In this document: piece by piece, positions 16,067 through 25,333 of the stretch
Layout of the letters: each line of letters begins with the position of its first letter
How positions within the stretch are numbered: position 1 is the stretch's first letter
The notes under the pieces: model-generated
Databases searched by the model: none
Told to the model about the DNA's origin: nothing
The model's input: only the letters and a program-made list of their open reading frames with translations
Program-made: the position numbers and the translations under genes
NCBI RefSeq assembly: GCF_017094485.1
Contig: NZ_CP064786.1
Location: forward strand, 1,674,001 to 1,738,000
DNA length: 64,000 nucleotides
Origin: Natranaeroarchaeum sulfidigenes
GTDB taxonomy: Archaea; Halobacteriota; Halobacteria; Halobacteriales; Natronoarchaeaceae
Direction: 5' to 3'

Positions 16067-17509
16067 ATGATCACGAGCGAGCGCATGGCCGCGGTGGACG
16101 TGAACGCAGAGGCGCTCGGCGTCCCGCGGAAACAGCTCATGGAGTCGAGCGGTAACGCGGTCGCACAGGCAATACGAGATATCGCCGAACCGGGCGCGCG
16201 AATCGCCGTCGTCGCCGGACGGGGAAATAATGGGGGGGATGCCTTCGTCGCCGCACGGTTTCTGGACGCATACGACCTCTCGGTTCACCTGCTGGGCCGG
16301 GCCGAGACGATCACCACCGACATCGCCCGCGAGAACTGGGGGGCACTCGAACGGGGCGAGTACGATATCGAGGAGGTTCGGGACTCGACCCAGCTATCGC
16401 TGCCAGACGCCGATGTCGTAATCGACGCGATGCTCGGCACGGGCGTCACGGGAGCGCTCAGAGAGCCCGCCGCGAGCGCCGCCGAGGCGATCAACGCGAG
16501 TGACGCAACGGTCGTCTCGGTCGATGTACCCTCTGGGATCGACGCCGATACCGGCGAGGCGGCGGGCGTCGCGGTCGAAGCCGACCACGTCGTGACGTTT
16601 CACGACGACAAACCCGGCCTGGAGGGGGTCGACGCCGACGTGACGGTCGCGGATATCGGCATTCCCGACGCCGCCGAGCTGTTCGTCGAGCGCGGCGACC
16701 TGCTCGCCCTGTCTCGCGATCCCCAGTCTCACAAGGGCGATCACGGCACCGTACTGGTGATCGGTGGCGGTCCCTACTCCGGTGCGCCAGCGCTTTCGGC
16801 GCAGGCGGCGTTCCGGGCCGGTGCGGATCTGGTCTACGTTGCGACGCCCGAGTCCGTCGCCGACGCGGTCGCGGGCTACTCCGAGAACCTGATCGTCGAG
16901 GCGCTGCCCGGCGACCGGCTCGCACCGGTCCACGTCGACACCTTGCTCGCGCTGGCCGAGGACGCCGACGCCGTGCTCGTCGGCCCCGGACTTGGCGACG
17001 CCGAGGGAAGCCTCGACGCAGTGGCCGGGTTCCTTGAATCCTACGCCGGACAGGCGGTCGTCGACGCCGATCCGCTCCGGATCGTTCCCGAGGTCGAGAC
17101 CGACGCCGACCTCGTCTGCACCCCACACCAGGGCGAACTGACGGCGATGGGTGGCCCGCGCGAGGACGACTGGCGCGACCGGGCTGACGCCGTCGAGTCC
17201 TTCGCCACGGAGGTCGGCGCGACCCTGCTGGTGAAGGGCGCATACGACGTGGTAAGCGACGGCGAGCGAACGCGTGTGAACCGGACAGGCAACCCCGGAA
17301 TGACGGTCGGCGGGACGGGCGATGTCCTCGCCGGGATCACCGCCGCGCTCGTCACGGCCCTCGACGACCCCGTGCAGGCGGCGGGGATCGCGGCGTACGC
17401 GAACGGCCGCGCCGGTGATTTCGCGGTCGAAGAACACGGTTACGGGCTGGTCGCGACCGACCTCCCGCCGCGTGTCGCCGAGGCGCTCTGGGGTGATCGG
17501 GATGAGTGA
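16067..17509 (+). CDS. nnr: bifunctional NAD(P)HX epimerase / ADP-dependent NAD(P)HX dehydratase
   Basis: This 480-residue fusion repairs hydrated NADH and NADPH. The N-terminal YjeF_N epimerase domain (about 1-215) has the NAGRGNNGGDAF-type motif (GRGNNGGDAFVAARFL), AMLGTGVTG and VDVPSGIDADTG. The C-terminal ribokinase-like dehydratase has HKGDHGTVLVIGGGPYSGAP, VGPGLG, and NPGMTVGGTGDVLAG. I take the ATG at 16067 (MITSERMAAVDVNAEALG); an in-frame TTG lies nine codons upstream. The stop overlaps the moaC start by 8 bp, so the two are co-translated. Confidence 0.92.
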   Translation: MITSERMAAVDVNAEALGVPRKQLMESSGNAVAQAIRDIAEPGARIAVVAGRGNNGGDAFVAARFLDAYDLSVHLLGRAETITTDIARENWGALERGEYDIEEVRDSTQLSLPDADVVIDAMLGTGVTGALREPAASAAEAINASDATVVSVDVPSGIDADTGEAAGVAVEADHVVTFHDDKPGLEGVDADVTVADIGIPDAAELFVERGDLLALSRDPQSHKGDHGTVLVIGGGPYSGAPALSAQAAFRAGADLVYVATPESVADAVAGYSENLIVEALPGDRLAPVHVDTLLALAEDADAVLVGPGLGDAEGSLDAVAGFLESYAGQAVVDADPLRIVPEVETDADLVCTPHQGELTAMGGPREDDWRDRADAVESFATEVGATLLVKGAYDVVSDGERTRVNRTGNPGMTVGGTGDVLAGITAALVTALDDPVQAAGIAAYANGRAGDFAVEEHGYGLVATDLPPRVAEALWGDRDE

Positions 17510-18017
17510 GGAACGACCGGAGGGCGAGACGGGCGAGCGCCCGACCGGGGATCTAACCCACGTCGACGACTCCGGCGAGGCGCAGATGGTCGACGTCGGG
17601 GACAAGCCCGACAGCGATCGCCGGGCGGTCGCTACGGGCGAGATCACCCTTCAGCCCTCGACCGTCGAGGCGATCCGTGCGAACGACGTCGAGAAGGGTG
17701 ACGTGCTGGCCACCGCGCGGATCGGCGCGATTCAGGCGGTCAAACACACCTGGGAGACGATCCCGATGTGCCACCAGATCCCCGTCTCGAACGTCGACGT
17801 GGAGTTCGAGGTCGGCGACGAGTACGTGGAGCTGACGGTCGGCGTCGAGACGACCGGAAAGACCGGCTGTGAGATGGAGGCCCTCGAAGGCGTGACGACT
17901 GGACTCAACGTCGTCTGGGACATGGTGAAAGCCGCGGAAAAAGACGCCGAGGGCCAGTATCCCGACACCCGGATCGAGAACGTCCGAGTAGTACAGAAAC
18001 GCAAGGAGCGACTCTGA
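17502..18017 (+). CDS. moaC: cyclic pyranopterin monophosphate synthase MoaC
   Basis: The 171-residue protein catalyses the second part of the first step of molybdopterin synthesis. Motifs: LTHVDDSGEAQMVDVG at the N-terminus, KHTWETIPMCHQIPVSNV with the metal- and substrate-binding histidines, and the active-site stretch TGKTGCEMEALEGV followed by LNVVWDMVKAAEKD. The 15-residue acidic N-terminal extension is typical of haloarchaea. Its ATG lies inside the end of nnr (8-bp overlap), and yqeC follows after 8 bp, making a cofactor operon. Confidence 0.94.
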   Translation: MSEERPEGETGERPTGDLTHVDDSGEAQMVDVGDKPDSDRRAVATGEITLQPSTVEAIRANDVEKGDVLATARIGAIQAVKHTWETIPMCHQIPVSNVDVEFEVGDEYVELTVGVETTGKTGCEMEALEGVTTGLNVVWDMVKAAEKDAEGQYPDTRIENVRVVQKRKERL

Positions 18018-18025
18018 GGGCGAGG

Positions 18026-18772
18026 ATGGAAACGCCCGACCCACCACCGCTGGCCGACGCGCTCGACGCCCGCACCGGACTCGTCGCCGTCGTCGGTGCG
18101 GGCGGCAAGAAGACGACGCTGTACGCGCTGGCGAGCCGACTCGACCAGGCCATCGTCACCGCCACCGTGCGGATCCCCATCTTCGACCGACAGATGGCCG
18201 AAGTTATCGTCACCGAGGACCCGGTTGTGGCGGCCCGAGAGGCGAGCGCGTGGCCGCTCGGTCTCGTCCCCGAACGCGAGCGCGAGGACCGGTATCTCGG
18301 CTACACTCCAGAAACGGTCGACGCGCTCGCGGAGGCCAACATCGCCGAGTCGGTGCTCGTGAAAGCCGACGGCGCGCGGACTCGACTGCTAAAAGCACCC
18401 GACGAGCACGAGCCACAGCTTCCGAGCACCGTCGATACCGTGCTCCCGATCGCCAGCGTACAGGCGGTCGGCAAGCCGCTCACCGGGGAGTACATCCACC
18501 GGCCCGAACGCGTGGCCGCGATCACCGATCGCTCGGTCGGCGACGAGATTCGACCCCAGGACGTCGCTCGCGTCCTGACGAGCGAGGCGGGCGGGCTGAA
18601 AGACGTGCCCGAAGATGCGACCGTGGTCGCCGTCGTCAACATGGTCGACGACGCGGAGGATTACGATACCGCTCGTGAGATTGCCGAGCGCGTCGTCGCG
18701 GAGCCGCAGATCGACGCGGTGGCGCTCACTTCGCTGATCGCCGACGAGCCGGTTCGGGAGCTGTACCGCTGA
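18026..18772 (+). CDS. yqeC: YqeC-like molybdoenzyme accessory protein
   Basis: The 248-residue protein has an N-terminal P-loop-like motif VGAGGKKTTLYALA, the family motif VLVKADGARTRLLKAP, and a C-terminal region ending VVNMVDDAEDYDTAREIAE. It matches the YqeC family, which in bacteria is associated with selenium-dependent molybdenum hydroxylases. Haloarchaea are not known for selenium metabolism, so here it more likely serves a Mo-cofactor maturation or sulfuration step. It follows moaC by 8 bp and converges with mobA (3 bp between stop codons). Confidence 0.82.
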   Translation: METPDPPPLADALDARTGLVAVVGAGGKKTTLYALASRLDQAIVTATVRIPIFDRQMAEVIVTEDPVVAAREASAWPLGLVPEREREDRYLGYTPETVDALAEANIAESVLVKADGARTRLLKAPDEHEPQLPSTVDTVLPIASVQAVGKPLTGEYIHRPERVAAITDRSVGDEIRPQDVARVLTSEAGGLKDVPEDATVVAVVNMVDDAEDYDTAREIAERVVAEPQIDAVALTSLIADEPVRELYR

Positions 18773-18775
18773 CGT

Positions 18776-19390
18776 CTAGGTCTCGAAGGCCGCGGCAGCC
18801 TCGGCGAGTTCTTCGCGAGTGTTGATGTTCTCGAACGTCCGCAGGGATGCATGTTCGCGGATCGCCGCCTCTCCCACGGTAATGTACTCGATCCGGTCGA
18901 GCGCGGCGGTGACTTTCCGCTCACCAGCGTCAAGCGTCGCCTGGCAGGCGTCGGCCATCGCCGCGGCGCGGTAGACGGCCTGTGTCGTCTGGAACCAGCC
19001 GTCATCGAGCCGTGGAACGGCGGCGTCGTGGCCCACCGCGCGCTCGAACAGGTACTCGATGAGCAACGGCTGGACGAATGGCATGTCGCAGGCGACGACG
19101 AACGCGTACTCGGTATCGACGGCACGGAGTCCCGCTAGCATCCCGGCGACCGGACCCTCGTCGGGCCGTTCGTCCTCGGCATAGCGGATCGGCGTCCGGG
19201 AGCCCTCCATCGCCGATTCGATTGCCGCTCGCTGATCGGCACGGCAATTAATGACTACCGCGTCGACCGCCTCGTCGACGGACTCGGCGACCCGGCGGAT
19301 GATCGGCGTCCCCGCGAGGTCGGCGACGGCCTTGTCGCGGTTACCAAAGCGCGTTGATCGGCCACCCGCGAGGATGACGGCGGTGGACAT
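18776..19390 (-). CDS. mobA: molybdenum cofactor guanylyltransferase MobA
   Basis: This 204-residue nucleotidyltransferase begins MSTAVILAGGRSTRFGNRDKA, the GTP-binding signature of the family. It continues with DERPDEGPVAGMLAGL and the Mg-binding aspartate segment VVACDMPFVQP. MobA adds GMP to molybdopterin to make the bis-MGD form required by formate-dehydrogenase-type enzymes, one of which is encoded just downstream at 20152-22284. The ATG at 19390 is immediately before the family motif. Confidence 0.92.
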   Translation of the reverse strand: MSTAVILAGGRSTRFGNRDKAVADLAGTPIIRRVAESVDEAVDAVVINCRADQRAAIESAMEGSRTPIRYAEDERPDEGPVAGMLAGLRAVDTEYAFVVACDMPFVQPLLIEYLFERAVGHDAAVPRLDDGWFQTTQAVYRAAAMADACQATLDAGERKVTAALDRIEYITVGEAAIREHASLRTFENINTREELAEAAAAFET

Positions 19391-19437
19391 GCTCGTACTT
19401 CGAGGGGGCGGATCAAAGTCCCTGTGGGTGCCGGTGT

Positions 19438-19995
19438 TCACTCCTGTGATAGCTGCCGGAGCGCACGATACAGCGTCGGGAGGTCACAGTCCAGGCGTTC
19501 GGCGATGGAACGACAGGTATTGAGATACCGTTCGTACTCCGCCCGTGTCGGTGGATTCGGGTACGGATCGTGCAACTCCCCGGCATCGGACAGCGCGTTC
19601 CACTCCCGCTCGCCGACGACGAGGTAGCGTTCGGGATCAATAAAAAAGAGAAACGCCGACGCCACGGGGACGTCGATGCCGTCGAGTTGGGTGAGTCTAT
19701 CCAGCGCGTCGTCGAGCGAATCCGCAGTCGCGGCGTCGACGATAGCGCGCTTGATCTCACGACGGTCGTTCCCCTCGAAGGCGTCCTCGCGCTCGCGACG
19801 CTCGCGGTTCGAGAGTGCGCCCATCTCCCGGCGGTAGTACCACTCGACGACCCAGCTGGCGTCCCGGCGACCGAACTCGCCCGACTCGAACGCGGCGGGA
19901 AGCGTCTCGATGGACTCCTGTTCGACGGTGTGAAACGGTGCCTCCCGTTCGTACTCCGCCGCAAGCCGTTCCACCAGCGCGGGGGTTAGCTCCAT
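19438..19995 (-). CDS. conserved protein of unknown function with helix-hairpin-helix glycosylase-like segment
   Basis: This 185-residue mainly helical protein contains LTQLDGIDVPVASAFLFFIDPERYLVVGEREWNAL in its middle, of which the core (GIDVPVASAFLFF) resembles the helix-hairpin-helix and adjacent helix of HhH-GPD DNA glycosylases and related folds. I see no convincing catalytic Lys/Asp pair, so repair activity is not claimed. It precedes the divergent formate dehydrogenase gene by about 155 bp. It is a real gene judged by codon composition and length. Confidence 0.75.
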   Translation of the reverse strand: MELTPALVERLAAEYEREAPFHTVEQESIETLPAAFESGEFGRRDASWVVEWYYRREMGALSNRERREREDAFEGNDRREIKRAIVDAATADSLDDALDRLTQLDGIDVPVASAFLFFIDPERYLVVGEREWNALSDAGELHDPYPNPPTRAEYERYLNTCRSIAERLDCDLPTLYRALRQLSQE

Positions 19996-20136
19996 TGTGT
20001 GTGATATCGTACGCCTCCGTTGTGAGCGTTAGCCCCGACTTGAGTAATTCCCTCCGATCGGTGAACCGTTCGGATCGCGTGGATTACATTGATACCGGTT
20101 CCGAACGTCATTTCCTAGCACGGTCCACACCGTGTG

Positions 20137-20141
20137 GGAGG
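20137..20141 (+). promoter_or_regulatory. Shine-Dalgarno GGAGG for the formate dehydrogenase gene
   Basis: GGAGG ends 10 bases before the ATG at 20152. It decides that ATG over the GTG at 20134, which would overlap the site. A clear ribosome-binding site implies a leadered transcript, unlike many genes in this window. Confidence 0.6.
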
Positions 20142-20151
20142 GATTCCGATC

Positions 20152-22284
20152 ATGGCAAGTGAGCAATCAGAACCAGTCAAGACGATCTGTCCGTACTGCG
20201 GCGTCGGCTGCGGGATCAAAGTACAGCAAGGCGAGGAACCGGGGGATGTCCGCTTCATGCCGTGGGGCAAGGCCCCGGTCAACGAGGGGCGCATCTGCAT
20301 CAAGGGCGGCGCGGCGACCGAGGTCGTCGACCACGAGGACCGCCTCACGGAGCCGCTGATCCGAGAGGGAGACGAGTTCCGGGAGGCGTCATGGGAGGAG
20401 GCGTACGACCGGATCACCGAAGAGATGGAGCGCATCAGCGAGACGTACCAGCCCGACGCAATGGGCTTTTTTGGCTCCTCAAAGGTGATGAACGAGGAGA
20501 ACTATCTGCTCCAGAAACTTGCCCGGCGCTACGGCACCAACAATATCGATAACTGCACGCGGATGTGTCACGCATCGACGGTCTGGGCGCTCCGGACGAG
20601 TCTGGGCGCGGGTGCGATGACAAACAGCATGCGCGACCTGCGCGAGGAGGCCGATCTATTGTGGATCCAGGGTGCAAACCCCGGCGAGCAGCATCCGATC
20701 GCCAACAGCCAGTACTTCCGCCAGGCCGTGCTGGAGGGCGCAACCGTCATTCAGGTGGACCCACACGCCAACAAGACGACCAGATCCTTCGAGATCGAGG
20801 ACACCGACCGTCATCAGCATCTCCAGTTAAATCCGGGAACGGACATTCCGCTCCTGAACATCGTCCTCAAGACGATCCTCGAAAAGCACGAGGAGAATCC
20901 CGACGATGGCTGGATCGACGAGGAGTTCATCGCCGAACGCACCGAGGGGTTCGACGATCTGAAAGAGACGCTCGCGGAGTTCGACAAAGAGGAAGCCGCC
21001 GAACAGTGTGGAATCCCACTGGAAGAGATCGAACGCGCCGCCGAAAAGTACGCGAAGGCGGACAACGCCGCCATCTTCACCGGGATGGGGATGAGCCAGC
21101 ACGCCTGTGGCGTCGACAACGTACAAAACGAGATCAACCTCGCGCTGATCACGGGGAACCTCGGGCGACCGGGAACCGGCGTGAACCCCCTGCGCGGCCA
21201 GAACAACGTGCAAGGGACCTGTGATGTCGGCGCGATGCCGAACGTGCTTCCCGGCTATCAGCTCGTCGACGACGACGAGGCCCGCGAAAGCGTCGAGGAC
21301 GTCTGGGGCTTCGAGATTCCCGACGAGCCCGGACTCACGAACGTCGAAATCTCGAATGCGGCGGGGAGCTCCATCCACGGCCTCTACATCATGGGGGAGA
21401 ACCCGGTAATGTCCGAGCCGGACGCCAACGAGGTCAGAGAACGCTTCGAGGAGCTGGAGTTCATGGTCGTCCAGGATATCTTCATGACCGAAACGGCGGA
21501 GTTCGCCGACGTGATCCTTCCGGCGACGACCTGGGCCGAACGCGGCGGGACGGTCACGAACACCGACCGGCGCGTCCAGCGAATGCGTGGCGTCGACAAA
21601 GTACATGAGAACACGAAACACGATCTGGAGATCCTGATGGAGATCGGGAGTCGACTGTTCGGCGAGGAAGCGTTCCGCTTCGAGGACGTCGAGGCGGTGT
21701 TCGAGGAGCTCCGGCAGGTCTGTCCGAGCTACTACGGCATGACCTACGAGTTGCTCGGCGAAGAGGGCCTGCACTGGCCATGCTACGAGATCGGCGACGA
21801 GGGCGATCCGTTCCTCTACGAGGACTCGTTCGACACCGAGAACGGCCTCGGGCAGATCGAGGGCGTCGTCCACCAGCCGCCAAAGGAGGTACCCGACGAC
21901 GAGTACCCACTGACGCTGACGACGGCGCGGCTCGAAGAGCACTACAACACGGGGACGATGAGCCGACGGTCGCCCACGCTCATGCGTCAGCACCCCGAGA
22001 ACTTCGTCGACGTTCACCCCAACGACGCCGAGCGCTACGATATCGAGGACGGCGAGTACGTCACGCTGAAATCCCGGCGTGGCGAGATCACGCTCAAAGC
22101 ACAGGTCACCACGGACATCAAGGAGGGGTCGGTATGGACGACGCCACACTTCGCCGAAGCCTCCGCGAACGTCCTGACGAACGACGTCCTCGACGAGCGC
22201 GCGAAGATCCCCGAGTACAAGGCGGCCGCCGCCGAGATCGACGTCGGGATCGAGCCCGCGGAAGGAGCGCCAGCGGACGACTGA
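20152..22284 (+). CDS. formate dehydrogenase alpha subunit type molybdopterin oxidoreductase
   Basis: The 710-residue protein belongs to the FdhF/FdhA-type Mo/W-bis-MGD family. The N-terminal [4Fe-4S] motif is intact (C13, C16, C20, C49). The metal ligand is probably C139 in NCTRMCHAST, a cysteine form rather than selenocysteine. The substrate-site sequence RMCHAS matches FdhF-like enzymes, and the C-terminal molydop-binding domain (LTLTTARLEEHYNTGTMSRRS) is complete. No FdhB-like Fe-S subunit and no FdhD is in the window; instead an AOR-like protein follows after one base. Mo-cofactor genes moaC, yqeC and mobA lie just upstream. Formate oxidation is the likely reaction, but another small-molecule dehydrogenase activity cannot be excluded. 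Confidence 0.88.
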   Translation: MASEQSEPVKTICPYCGVGCGIKVQQGEEPGDVRFMPWGKAPVNEGRICIKGGAATEVVDHEDRLTEPLIREGDEFREASWEEAYDRITEEMERISETYQPDAMGFFGSSKVMNEENYLLQKLARRYGTNNIDNCTRMCHASTVWALRTSLGAGAMTNSMRDLREEADLLWIQGANPGEQHPIANSQYFRQAVLEGATVIQVDPHANKTTRSFEIEDTDRHQHLQLNPGTDIPLLNIVLKTILEKHEENPDDGWIDEEFIAERTEGFDDLKETLAEFDKEEAAEQCGIPLEEIERAAEKYAKADNAAIFTGMGMSQHACGVDNVQNEINLALITGNLGRPGTGVNPLRGQNNVQGTCDVGAMPNVLPGYQLVDDDEARESVEDVWGFEIPDEPGLTNVEISNAAGSSIHGLYIMGENPVMSEPDANEVRERFEELEFMVVQDIFMTETAEFADVILPATTWAERGGTVTNTDRRVQRMRGVDKVHENTKHDLEILMEIGSRLFGEEAFRFEDVEAVFEELRQVCPSYYGMTYELLGEEGLHWPCYEIGDEGDPFLYEDSFDTENGLGQIEGVVHQPPKEVPDDEYPLTLTTARLEEHYNTGTMSRRSPTLMRQHPENFVDVHPNDAERYDIEDGEYVTLKSRRGEITLKAQVTTDIKEGSVWTTPHFAEASANVLTNDVLDERAKIPEYKAAAAEIDVGIEPAEGAPADD

Positions 22285-22285
22285 C

Positions 22286-24028
22286 GTGATAGTGAGCGCT
22301 CCCGACCGGCTCCTCCGGGTGGACCTCACGACCCGGACCACGACAAGCGAGCGTGTCCCCGAGCCCTGGCTTCGCAAGTACATCGGCGGAAAAGGTCTCG
22401 GGGCGCGCTATCTCTACGAAGAGCTGGAGCCGGGAACCGACCCGCTTGGTCCCGAGAACGCGCTCCTGTTTATGCTTGGTCCGCTTACCGGGCTCGTACC
22501 GGGCGATGCGCGGTACGCCGCAGTGACGAAGTCGCCACTGACCGGTACCTTTCTGGACTCGTACGCCGGCGGCGAGTTTCCGGCGGTGCTGGCTGGCGCG
22601 CTTGACGAGCATATTGGGCTTCTGATCGAGGGGGCGGCGAGCGAGCCGGTCAGGATCGACGTCGAAGCCGGAAAGGCATCGGTCGCCTCGACCGACAACT
22701 GGGGTACAGATACAGTCGAAACCGCCAAGGGCTACGACGGATCGGTCGCCTGTATCGGCCCGGCAGGGGAGAACCGTGTGGCCTACGCCACGATCGCCTC
22801 GGACGCCGGGGAGCATCACGCCGGACGGGGCGGTGCAGGCGCGGTAATGGGTGCAAAGCGCCTGAAGGCTGTCGTCGCGCGCGGTGATCCGCCGAGCGGA
22901 CTAGAGACTCTTCGGGAGCGCTACGAGCGCCGCTTCGAGACGGACTCGGCAACGAGCTGGCACCGGACGAGCGGCACTGTCGAAACTATCGAGTTCGCCG
23001 ACGCGGTCGGTGCGCTCGCCGGGGAGGGGTGGCAAACACGCGGCGTCGAAGACGCCGGTGCGCTGGGAATCGAGGCGATCCGCGAGCGCGCAACAGACCG
23101 CGAACGCCCGAACGAGGCTTCGCCCGGCGACTTCCGCGTCGAGACGGAGTCCGGCGAGCACGTTCCCCGTGGCGGGACCGCGATATCACTCGGCGCGGGC
23201 CTCGGTATCGACGAGTTCGACGCCGTCGTCGAACTGGGCGCGCGCTGTGACGAACTCGGTCTCGACCTCATCGACGCCGGAAGCGCCGTGGCGTGGACGA
23301 TCCACGCGAGCGAGCGCGGCATCGTCGACCGGAAGATCGAGTTCGGCGATCCCGACGGAGCACGCGAACTGCTTGAAGAGATCGTACTGCGTGAAACTCC
23401 GCTCGGTGATGCGCTGGCGGACGGCGTCGACGCCGCAGCGGAGGGGTTCGGGGGAGACGAACTGGTTCCCACAGTCAAGGCGATGGCACTGCCCGGGTAC
23501 GACCCTCGCGGCGCACCGAGCATGGCGCTCGCGTATGCGACCAGCGATCGGGGAGCGTGCCACCGCCGGGCGCTCCCGATCGAACGAGAGGTATTCGCGG
23601 CTGACTGGACGCCCGAACGCGTCGCAAGGGAGGTCGCTGTGGAGCAGGACCGGCGATCGGTGCTCTGGAGTCTCGTCATCGACGAGTTCGTTGCCCCGGT
23701 CTTTGACGATCTCGGCGCGGAATGGCTTGAGGCTGTCGGCGTAGCGCCCGATACCGACCTGCGAACCGTCGGCGAGCGTATCTGGACACTTACCCGACTG
23801 TTCAACGTCCGCGAAGGCTTCGGCCGGACCGACGACGTGCTTCCACAACCGCTCGCCGGGCAGGAGGGAGTCGACCGAGACTCGTTCGAGGCGATGCTGG
23901 ATCACTACTACGAGTACCGCGGCTGGGGGGCCAGTGGTCAACCGACGCCAGCGTTGGTGGATCGGCTGGAGATGTCAGATATCGACCAGACCGATCGCCT
24001 ATCGGACTCGCTCGACACCGATGAGTAG
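22286..24028 (+). CDS. aldehyde:ferredoxin oxidoreductase family protein lacking the Fe-S ligands
   Basis: This 580-residue AOR-fold protein keeps the pterin-binding parts: IGGKGLGARYLYEEL at the N-terminus, HAGRGGAGAVMGAKRLKAV at about 179-195, YDPRGAPSMALAYATSDRGACH at about 405-426. Aligning from memory with Pyrococcus furiosus AOR, the four [4Fe-4S] cysteines are replaced: N276, S279 and F283 occupy the C-x2-C-x3-C positions, and S462 the fourth. The catalytic glutamate (E313 there) is G297 here, while the catalytic-region histidine (H426) remains. It therefore may bind pterin but cannot carry the usual cluster. It starts with GTG one base after the formate dehydrogenase gene, so the two are co-translated and may form a complex. 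Confidence 0.85.
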   Translation: MIVSAPDRLLRVDLTTRTTTSERVPEPWLRKYIGGKGLGARYLYEELEPGTDPLGPENALLFMLGPLTGLVPGDARYAAVTKSPLTGTFLDSYAGGEFPAVLAGALDEHIGLLIEGAASEPVRIDVEAGKASVASTDNWGTDTVETAKGYDGSVACIGPAGENRVAYATIASDAGEHHAGRGGAGAVMGAKRLKAVVARGDPPSGLETLRERYERRFETDSATSWHRTSGTVETIEFADAVGALAGEGWQTRGVEDAGALGIEAIRERATDRERPNEASPGDFRVETESGEHVPRGGTAISLGAGLGIDEFDAVVELGARCDELGLDLIDAGSAVAWTIHASERGIVDRKIEFGDPDGARELLEEIVLRETPLGDALADGVDAAAEGFGGDELVPTVKAMALPGYDPRGAPSMALAYATSDRGACHRRALPIEREVFAADWTPERVAREVAVEQDRRSVLWSLVIDEFVAPVFDDLGAEWLEAVGVAPDTDLRTVGERIWTLTRLFNVREGFGRTDDVLPQPLAGQEGVDRDSFEAMLDHYYEYRGWGASGQPTPALVDRLEMSDIDQTDRLSDSLDTDE

Positions 24029-24157
24029 CAAATTTACCATCGGTATATTATTAAATATTTGTGGTTATTAATAAATGATGAATGGTACTCTCAGGTTTCC
24101 GTAATTAAGTATAATAGTCGATCTGTGGAAATATCGACTGCGGGGGGGAGTTACCAT

Positions 24158-25333
24158 ATGTCAATGAACGCAGTCGTATACCAGGGGGAGTACGACGTCA
24201 CGATCGAAGAGGTAGAGGAACCGGAAATTCAACACCCAAACGACGTGGTGATCGACATCACGACTTCGGCCATCTGTGGGTCCGACCTGCACATGTACGA
24301 GGGCCGGACTGCAGCCGAGCCGGGCATCGTCTTCGGACACGAGAACATGGGGGTCGTGACCGAAGTCGGCGAAGCAGTCAGTACACTGGAAGAGGGCGAC
24401 CGTATCGTCCTCCCGTTCAACGTCGCGTGTGGGTTCTGTCAGAACTGCGAGGATGGCTTCACCGGCTTCTGTACGAACGTCAATCCCGGCTTTGCCGGCG
24501 GAGCGTACGGCTACGTCGCGATGGGGCCGTACAAAGGAGGACAGGCAGAAAAGCTCCGCGTCCCGTATGCGGACTTCAATGCGCTGAAACTGCCGGAGGG
24601 GCGCACCCACGAGGACTCGTTTGCGCTGCTCGCGGATATCTTCCCGACCGGCTGGCATGGAACCGAACTGGCGAACCTCCAGCCCGGCGAGTCCGTCGCG
24701 ATCTTCGGTGCCGGTCCGGTCGGACTGATGGCCGCCTACAGCGCCAGTATCAAAGGCGCCTCGGAGATCTACGTCGTCGATCAGGTCCCGAGTCGCCTCG
24801 AACTCGCCGAGAAACACTGTGACGCGAGGGGCATCGACTTCACCGAGGGCGATCCAGTCGAACAGATCATCGACGCCCACGGTGGCGAGGTCGACAAGGG
24901 CGTCGACGCGGTCGGCTATCAGGCAACCGATCCCAAAGACGTCGATACGGATACTGAAGACTACGCCTACGACCCGGCCAAGGAGAACCCGGCTGTCGTG
25001 CTCAACCAGCTGATCCAGGTAGTCCGCCCGACCGGACAGCTCGGCATTCCGGGACTGTACGTGCCAGAGGACCCCGGTGCTCCCGACGATATGGCTGCGC
25101 AGGGACGCCTCGGTATCGACTTCGGCAAGCTCTTCGAGAAGGGTCTCAAACTCGGTACCGGTCAGTGTAACGTCAAGCAGTACAACCGGCAGCTACGCGA
25201 TCTGATTATCGAGGGACGCGCCGATCCGTCCTGGGTAGTCTCTCACAGAGTCGATCTAGAAGAAGCTCCCGAGATGTACGAACGGTTCGACGCGCGTGAA
25301 GAGGGCGTCATCAAGGTCCTGCTCGAACCGTAG
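24158..25333 (+). CDS. zinc-dependent alcohol dehydrogenase, glutathione-independent formaldehyde dehydrogenase type
   Basis: This 391-residue MDR protein has the catalytic zinc ligands C40 and H61-E62 and the structural zinc cysteines C91, C94, C97 and C105. The NAD-binding motif is FGAGPVGLMAAYSA. The long insert around VGYQATDPKDVDTDTEDYAYDPAKENP is characteristic of the Pseudomonas-type glutathione-independent formaldehyde dehydrogenase, which oxidises formaldehyde to formate and can dismutate aldehydes. Its placement after a formate dehydrogenase suggests a formaldehyde to formate to CO2 route. A run of GGGGGGAG at 24143-24150 is the ribosome-binding site. The 130-bp gap before it is AT-rich (TATATTATTAAATATT at 24043-24058), a good promoter candidate. 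Confidence 0.88.
   Translation: MSMNAVVYQGEYDVTIEEVEEPEIQHPNDVVIDITTSAICGSDLHMYEGRTAAEPGIVFGHENMGVVTEVGEAVSTLEEGDRIVLPFNVACGFCQNCEDGFTGFCTNVNPGFAGGAYGYVAMGPYKGGQAEKLRVPYADFNALKLPEGRTHEDSFALLADIFPTGWHGTELANLQPGESVAIFGAGPVGLMAAYSASIKGASEIYVVDQVPSRLELAEKHCDARGIDFTEGDPVEQIIDAHGGEVDKGVDAVGYQATDPKDVDTDTEDYAYDPAKENPAVVLNQLIQVVRPTGQLGIPGLYVPEDPGAPDDMAAQGRLGIDFGKLFEKGLKLGTGQCNVKQYNRQLRDLIIEGRADPSWVVSHRVDLEEAPEMYERFDAREEGVIKVLLEP

Follow-up and report, generated by a model that had tools for sequence, protein, structure and literature searches.

A cysteine-free paralog of aldehyde:ferredoxin oxidoreductase with a probable role in the maturation of haloarchaeal formate dehydrogenases

Introduction

We found that a family of haloarchaeal proteins resembling aldehyde:ferredoxin oxidoreductase (AOR) has lost its iron-sulfur ligands and catalytic glutamate, co-occurs with several unlike formate dehydrogenases (FDHs), and probably has a role in the maturation of these enzymes. 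On a more specific reading, for and against which we see about equal grounds, the protein would be a redox-dead AOR paralog that serves in the cytoplasm as an FDH maturation factor and holds a metal-bis-pterin, a cofactor mechanism that we infer. If this is true, a tungsten-enzyme fold has been reused for cofactor maturation, with an enzyme turned into a cofactor carrier, and there would be an answer to how haloarchaea obtain active FDHs though the maturation factor FdhD was not found there. A likely role would also be assigned to a protein that is widespread and looks like an AOR by its Pfam and NCBIfam matches, and the protein YqeC would gain a second context, FDH, beyond the selenium-dependent molybdenum hydroxylases. 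FDHs are wanted for CO2 reduction, and the biosynthesis and insertion of their cofactor are a central barrier to their production (PMC13197769).

The window referred to throughout is a 64,000-nt stretch of Natranaeroarchaeum sulfidigenes DNA (GCF_017094485.1, NZ_CP064786.1, 1,674,001-1,738,000). P. furiosus AOR provides the reference numbering.

Results

The AOR-like gene of the window (22286..24028, plus strand) opens with a GTG start and encodes a full-length AOR-fold protein of 580 residues, in which the Pfam domains AFOR_N and AFOR_C scored 210 and 269 bits, well over threshold. A sequence search against solved AOR and formaldehyde ferredoxin oxidoreductase (FOR) structures gave E-values down to 7e-74. 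An earlier note on this DNA had proposed that the Fe-S cysteines are substituted, and alignment to P. furiosus AOR and to an intact haloarchaeal sister group bore this out, as C288, C291 and C295 correspond to a stretch devoid of cysteine (the former C-x2-C-x3-C loop, 23111..23134, plus strand). Residues 262-300 contain no cysteine in 60/60 family members, versus three loop cysteines in 4/4 sisters. The placement of N276, S279 and F283 at the cysteine positions stood in part: one alignment gives this reasonable register and another shifts it by two residues, and the pairing inside the loop is therefore uncertain. Misalignment of the loop as a whole was ruled out, as the sister, 41-48% identical, aligns across the same loop and the family is cysteine-free there. 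For the fourth ligand the earlier note had named the wrong residue. Cys494 pairs with D466 (23681..23683, plus strand; W-S-L-V-I-D in the AOR-like protein versus D-S-A-G-L-C), an Asp invariant in 71/71 relatives, and S462 pairs with S490; the conclusion that the ligand is lost is unchanged. Aspartate is a possible cluster ligand in some ferredoxins, and we discount D466 as such a ligand, on the alignment, because the other three are gone. Since the protein has only three cysteines in total, C156, C321 and C425, none of them at the [4Fe-4S] positions, a four-cysteine cluster is impossible, and the possibility that other cysteines have taken the Fe-S positions is excluded.

The proposed replacement of the catalytic Glu313 by G297 was upheld by alignment. 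R295-G296-G297 (23168..23176, plus strand) replaces Glu311-Tyr312-Glu313; the Arg and first Gly are invariant in 71/71 relatives, and where Glu313 stood these relatives have Ala, Gly or Ser. Both of the defining features that were checked are missing, namely the four cysteines (none in the loop, Asp for C494) and the Glu313/Tyr312 pair (now Ala/Gly/Ser and Gly), and for this reason the protein is, as far as its sequence can tell, a member of the AOR family by descent and fold, yet not a functional aldehyde:ferredoxin oxidoreductase. An AlphaFold2 model of the protein alone, without cofactor or partner, had a pLDDT of 93.4 and a pTM of 0.93, and its closest folds were FOR 1b25 and the AORs 9g7j, 9mqx and 1aor (TM 0.88-0.92); a structure prediction for the intact sister AOR reached a pLDDT of 49. 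Compared with the AOR/WOR family (P. furiosus AOR 1aor and FOR 1b25, H. volcanii WOR83 9q1t), the AOR-like protein shares the fold, the two-domain Pfam architecture, the pterin/Mg motifs and Thr243, Tyr427 and His448, but it lacks the [4Fe-4S] ligands and Glu313, with Tyr312 changed to Gly and Glu311 to Arg.

Several cofactor genes and an FDH gene precede the AOR-like gene in the window. These encode MoaC, of pterin cofactor biosynthesis (17322..18017, plus strand; NF008999, 249 bits, over cut-off), YqeC (18026..18772, plus strand; TIGR03172, 175 bits, cut-off 73), a MobA-like molybdopterin guanylyltransferase (18776..19441, minus strand; PF12804, with TIGR02665 at 119 bits, below its cut-off of 152) and FdhA (20134..22284, plus strand). 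FdhA is an FdhF-type catalytic subunit with Cys at the Sec position, and the earlier description of it as intact, with an Fe-S site of its own, was confirmed by TIGR01591 (formate dehydrogenase alpha; 761 bits, cut-off 666) and the Fe4S4 domain PF04879; its best solved match is the F420-linked formate dehydrogenase 9t1s. Between mobA and fdhA lies an 8-oxoguanine-glycosylase-like (OGG-like) gene (19438-19995, minus strand; weak PF21790 match, below cut-off), which recurs in FdhA islands whether or not they include the AOR-like gene. Downstream of the AOR-like gene is encoded a zinc alcohol-dehydrogenase family protein (24059..25333, plus strand; TIGR02819, 339 bits, below its cut-off of 637). 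It resembles glutathione-independent formaldehyde dehydrogenase, is found near the AOR-like gene in 7/75 loci (cluster 15) and could possibly be a source of formate. The TTG listed as its start probably lies too far upstream, and the conserved protein likely begins at a Met ~33-35 codons in. Across the 75 loci the recurrent neighbours of the AOR-like gene were YqeC (31), an FlpD/ferredoxin protein (26), FdhA (21), MobA (19), a NarJ-like chaperone (19) and DUF7124 (18), followed by the rarer Tat-type FDH (8), NuoF-like subunit (7) and MoaA (6), all of these counts being approximate, as the genes were called by a simple method and some loci duplicate one genome.

The pterin-binding framework that the earlier note had described as retained is conserved across the aligned relatives. 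The pterin/Mg motif H-H-A-G-R-G-G aligns at residues 177-183 (22814..22834, plus strand), the first pterin motif D-E-L-G-L-D at residues 322-327 (23249..23266, plus strand), and the invariant H426, equivalent to His448, is followed by R427, which is family-specific (Gln in the sister), and R428 (23561..23569, plus strand). Arg76, Gly95/96, AGRGG, Asp343 (D327) and Lys450, as Arg (R428), are all kept; N93 is Tyr in the AOR-like family and likewise in the intact sister. The second-shell residues discussed for AORs are Thr243, Tyr312, Glu313, Tyr427 and His448 (PMC12096430). Among the aligned relatives Thr243 and Tyr427 are each kept in 70/71 and His448 in 71/71, and Tyr312 and Glu313 are lost. 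With the metal-bis-pterin pocket conserved to this extent, the claim that the protein can hold pterin at most proved unsupported, and it may hold a metallated cofactor. The differences fixed between sister and family include E to R295, Y to G296, Q to R427, H to F283, A to C321 and C to D466. Such differently fixed sites argue that the pocket has been rebuilt, beyond mere abandonment.

The most serious rival to a carrier is that the protein is still catalytic: a cluster-free Mo/W-bis-pterin oxidoreductase or lyase acting on a formate-linked one-carbon compound, with another electron path. DMSO and TMAO reductases, which operate without an Fe-S cluster, provide a model. The near invariance of the metal-pterin pocket and of Thr243, Tyr427 and His448 speaks for this reading, two invariant arginines that are new in the family, Arg295 where Glu311 stood and Arg427 where Ile449 stood, could bind formate or another anion, and the formaldehyde-dehydrogenase-like gene adjoins in a minority of loci. 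BamB and YdhV, moreover, demonstrate that the family can lose the Glu313-type second shell and do other chemistry (PMC12096430). However, no electron route and no constant redox partner gene are visible, and the genes nearby serve cofactor synthesis or encode FDHs more than they encode enzymes linked to a substrate, so we regard an enzymatic role as unlikely.

The coupling to formate dehydrogenase that had been proposed from this one genome was upheld by class-wide co-occurrence, which is far stronger evidence than the adjacency. Haloarchaeal genomes (392) were searched with the window FdhA, a NuoG-fused FdhA and the Tat-type FDH (FdnG). The AOR-like protein had a match at E <= 1e-100 in 217/392; some matches near E 1e-130 were the intact sister and were removed from the AOR-like set. 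After six genomes with the intact sister only were removed and seven were added at a looser threshold, the gene-bearing genomes came to 218. Of these, 214/218 had one or more of the three FDH types, a figure that the looser re-check slightly favours, as it covered FdhA-positive genomes only; before the re-check, the FdhA table for the 392 genomes read 137/74/33/148 (p ~2e-21). The gene occurred in 4/106 genomes with none of the classified FDH types, and three of these four have an unclassified FdhA-like match (E ~1e-197 to 1e-200). Scored against FdnG-type FDH, the AOR-like gene gave 106/108. A first co-occurrence test, which took FdhA matches of any strength, mixed FDH types and probably nitrate reductase too (by NasA scores), and was replaced. 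By its co-occurrence with unlike FDHs and its place in cofactor-gene islands, the AOR-like gene behaves as expected for an FDH maturation factor.

These data also bear on the proposal that the protein is a structural or regulatory subunit of FDH, a pseudo-enzyme partner of FdhA. It was correctly noted that the AOR-like gene starts one base after the FdhF-type gene (stop at 22284, start at 22286), and this spacing is seen in the window and its closest relative. Yet the gene lies immediately beside FdhA in few loci only, most loci being without that adjacency, and 26 genomes have window-type FdhA without the AOR-like gene. Because of these 26, the gene is not strictly required; in three such FdhA loci that were examined, FdhA and YqeC form an island (with MobA and/or OGG) from which the AOR-like gene is missing. 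The adjacency was dropped as main evidence since it is rare, and the class-wide profile was used in its place. There are at least three different FDH partners, and since one of them, FdnG, carries a Tat motif and is exported, a fixed structural subunit is disfavoured; the AOR-like proteins showed no twin-arginine motif at their predicted N-termini. We therefore consider a subunit improbable. A cytoplasmic cofactor holder would fit better with a gene that is found near mobA and yqeC and is common to unlike FDHs, one of them Tat-exported.

Co-occurrence with FDH could instead result from a shared anaerobic lifestyle. The protein would then have another anaerobic function, or act as a cofactor store or sensor, with FDH as a lifestyle marker. 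The 4/218 gene-bearing genomes without a classified FDH are in keeping with this, as is the absence of the gene alongside the split FDH type (0/33 genomes having only that type). But the association persists within genera (Cochran-Mantel-Haenszel test, 19 informative genera, chi2 82, p ~1e-19), and the gene is repeatedly linked to FDH and cofactor genes in arrangements that differ from one another, which makes an indirect association improbable. The split FDH itself (L141, L142, L143) has a catalytic subunit of ~770 aa with its NuoG-like part separate, and its catalytic Cys-His is followed by G-A-A-S, versus G-A-M-T/S-N in other FDHs.

The history of the family points to a single loss. The relatives of the AOR-like protein included 14 from a genome scan. 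The intact haloarchaeal sister (L115-L129) has a similar length and similar pterin motifs, but it retains C-x2-C-x3-C, Glu313, Tyr312 and Cys494. A FastTree phylogeny placed the cysteine-free proteins in a single group beside this sister and left the remaining intact AORs outside, with support of ~1.0 on the separating branches. The simplest reading of the tree is that the cluster and the catalytic Glu were lost once, in the family's common ancestor. The ligands are kept in 14/14 non-haloarchaeal AORs, a small sample, and the window genome also encodes an ordinary AOR (L001) that has every ligand. No FDH or cofactor-gene neighbours were recognised at five loci of the intact sister. A decaying pseudogene, which the lost catalytic residues might suggest, is refuted by purifying selection between close ortholog pairs (dN/dS 0.10-0.20), frames open in the great majority among the matches listed, 148 positions at least 97% conserved among relatives, and coherent replacement residues.

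Discussion

In E. coli, FdhD is needed by all three FDHs and is a bis-MGD-binding sulfuration factor that supplies the sulfido ligand (PMC6239281). Using two models (PF02634 and TIGR00129), we did not find FdhD in 25/25 haloarchaea, including that of the window, most of which have FDHs; the same search matched eight/14 control genomes. The FdhD family was also not among the Pfam and NCBIfam matches of the AOR-like window protein. Since FdhD was not found, haloarchaea with FDH would use another way of maturation, barring a very divergent FdhD missed by both models. YqeC is a candidate for this because of its co-occurrence with FDHs, and may act in haloarchaea as a maturation factor for FDH: in a 194-genome subsample it was present in 128/129 genomes with the three FDH types versus 5/65 without, and it was absent in ten/ten genomes with split FDH only. 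YqeC is named for selenium-cofactor synthesis and has so far been tied to selenium-dependent molybdenum hydroxylases. Deletion of YqeC in C. difficile gave no clear phenotype, and its role there is uncertain (PMC11448449).

For the AOR-like protein we propose the following steps. It would hold the metal-bis-molybdopterin intermediate, the form bound by AOR-family proteins, offer it for MobA-type guanylylation and for maturation of the terminal ligand, perhaps by YqeC, and pass the cofactor to apo-FDH. This route would be taken by haloarchaea that have these FDHs, since they apparently lack FdhD. MobA acts on metal-bis-molybdopterin en route to bis-MGD, and the AOR fold binds this compound. YdhV, a member of the AOR family, holds bis-Mo-MPT, which MobA converts in vitro to bis-MGD that is inserted into apo-TorA (PMC9103625). 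The full scheme, in which haloarchaeal FDHs mature without FdhD by way of YqeC, a MobA-like transferase and the cysteine-free AOR paralog as metal-bis-pterin carrier, is one that we put forward tentatively.

The role proposed for the AOR-like protein is the same as that of FdhD/FdsC, one maturation factor shared by several unlike FDHs in a cell, but the sequence families are unrelated. The E. coli YdhV/BamB clade can be likened to it by description: these are AOR-family proteins without the AOR-type second shell and are not known aldehyde oxidisers (PMC9103625, PMC12096430). Members of that clade are reported to have one more Cys that ligates the metal. Neither the literature on FDHs of haloarchaea (PMC5437934, PMC6176080) nor that on the classification of WORs (PMC13328260) mentions a protein like the AOR-like one in the passages covered. 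A candidate partner is the DUF7124 protein, encoded directly downstream of the AOR-like gene and in the same orientation in 18 loci (for example L152:9706-10489).
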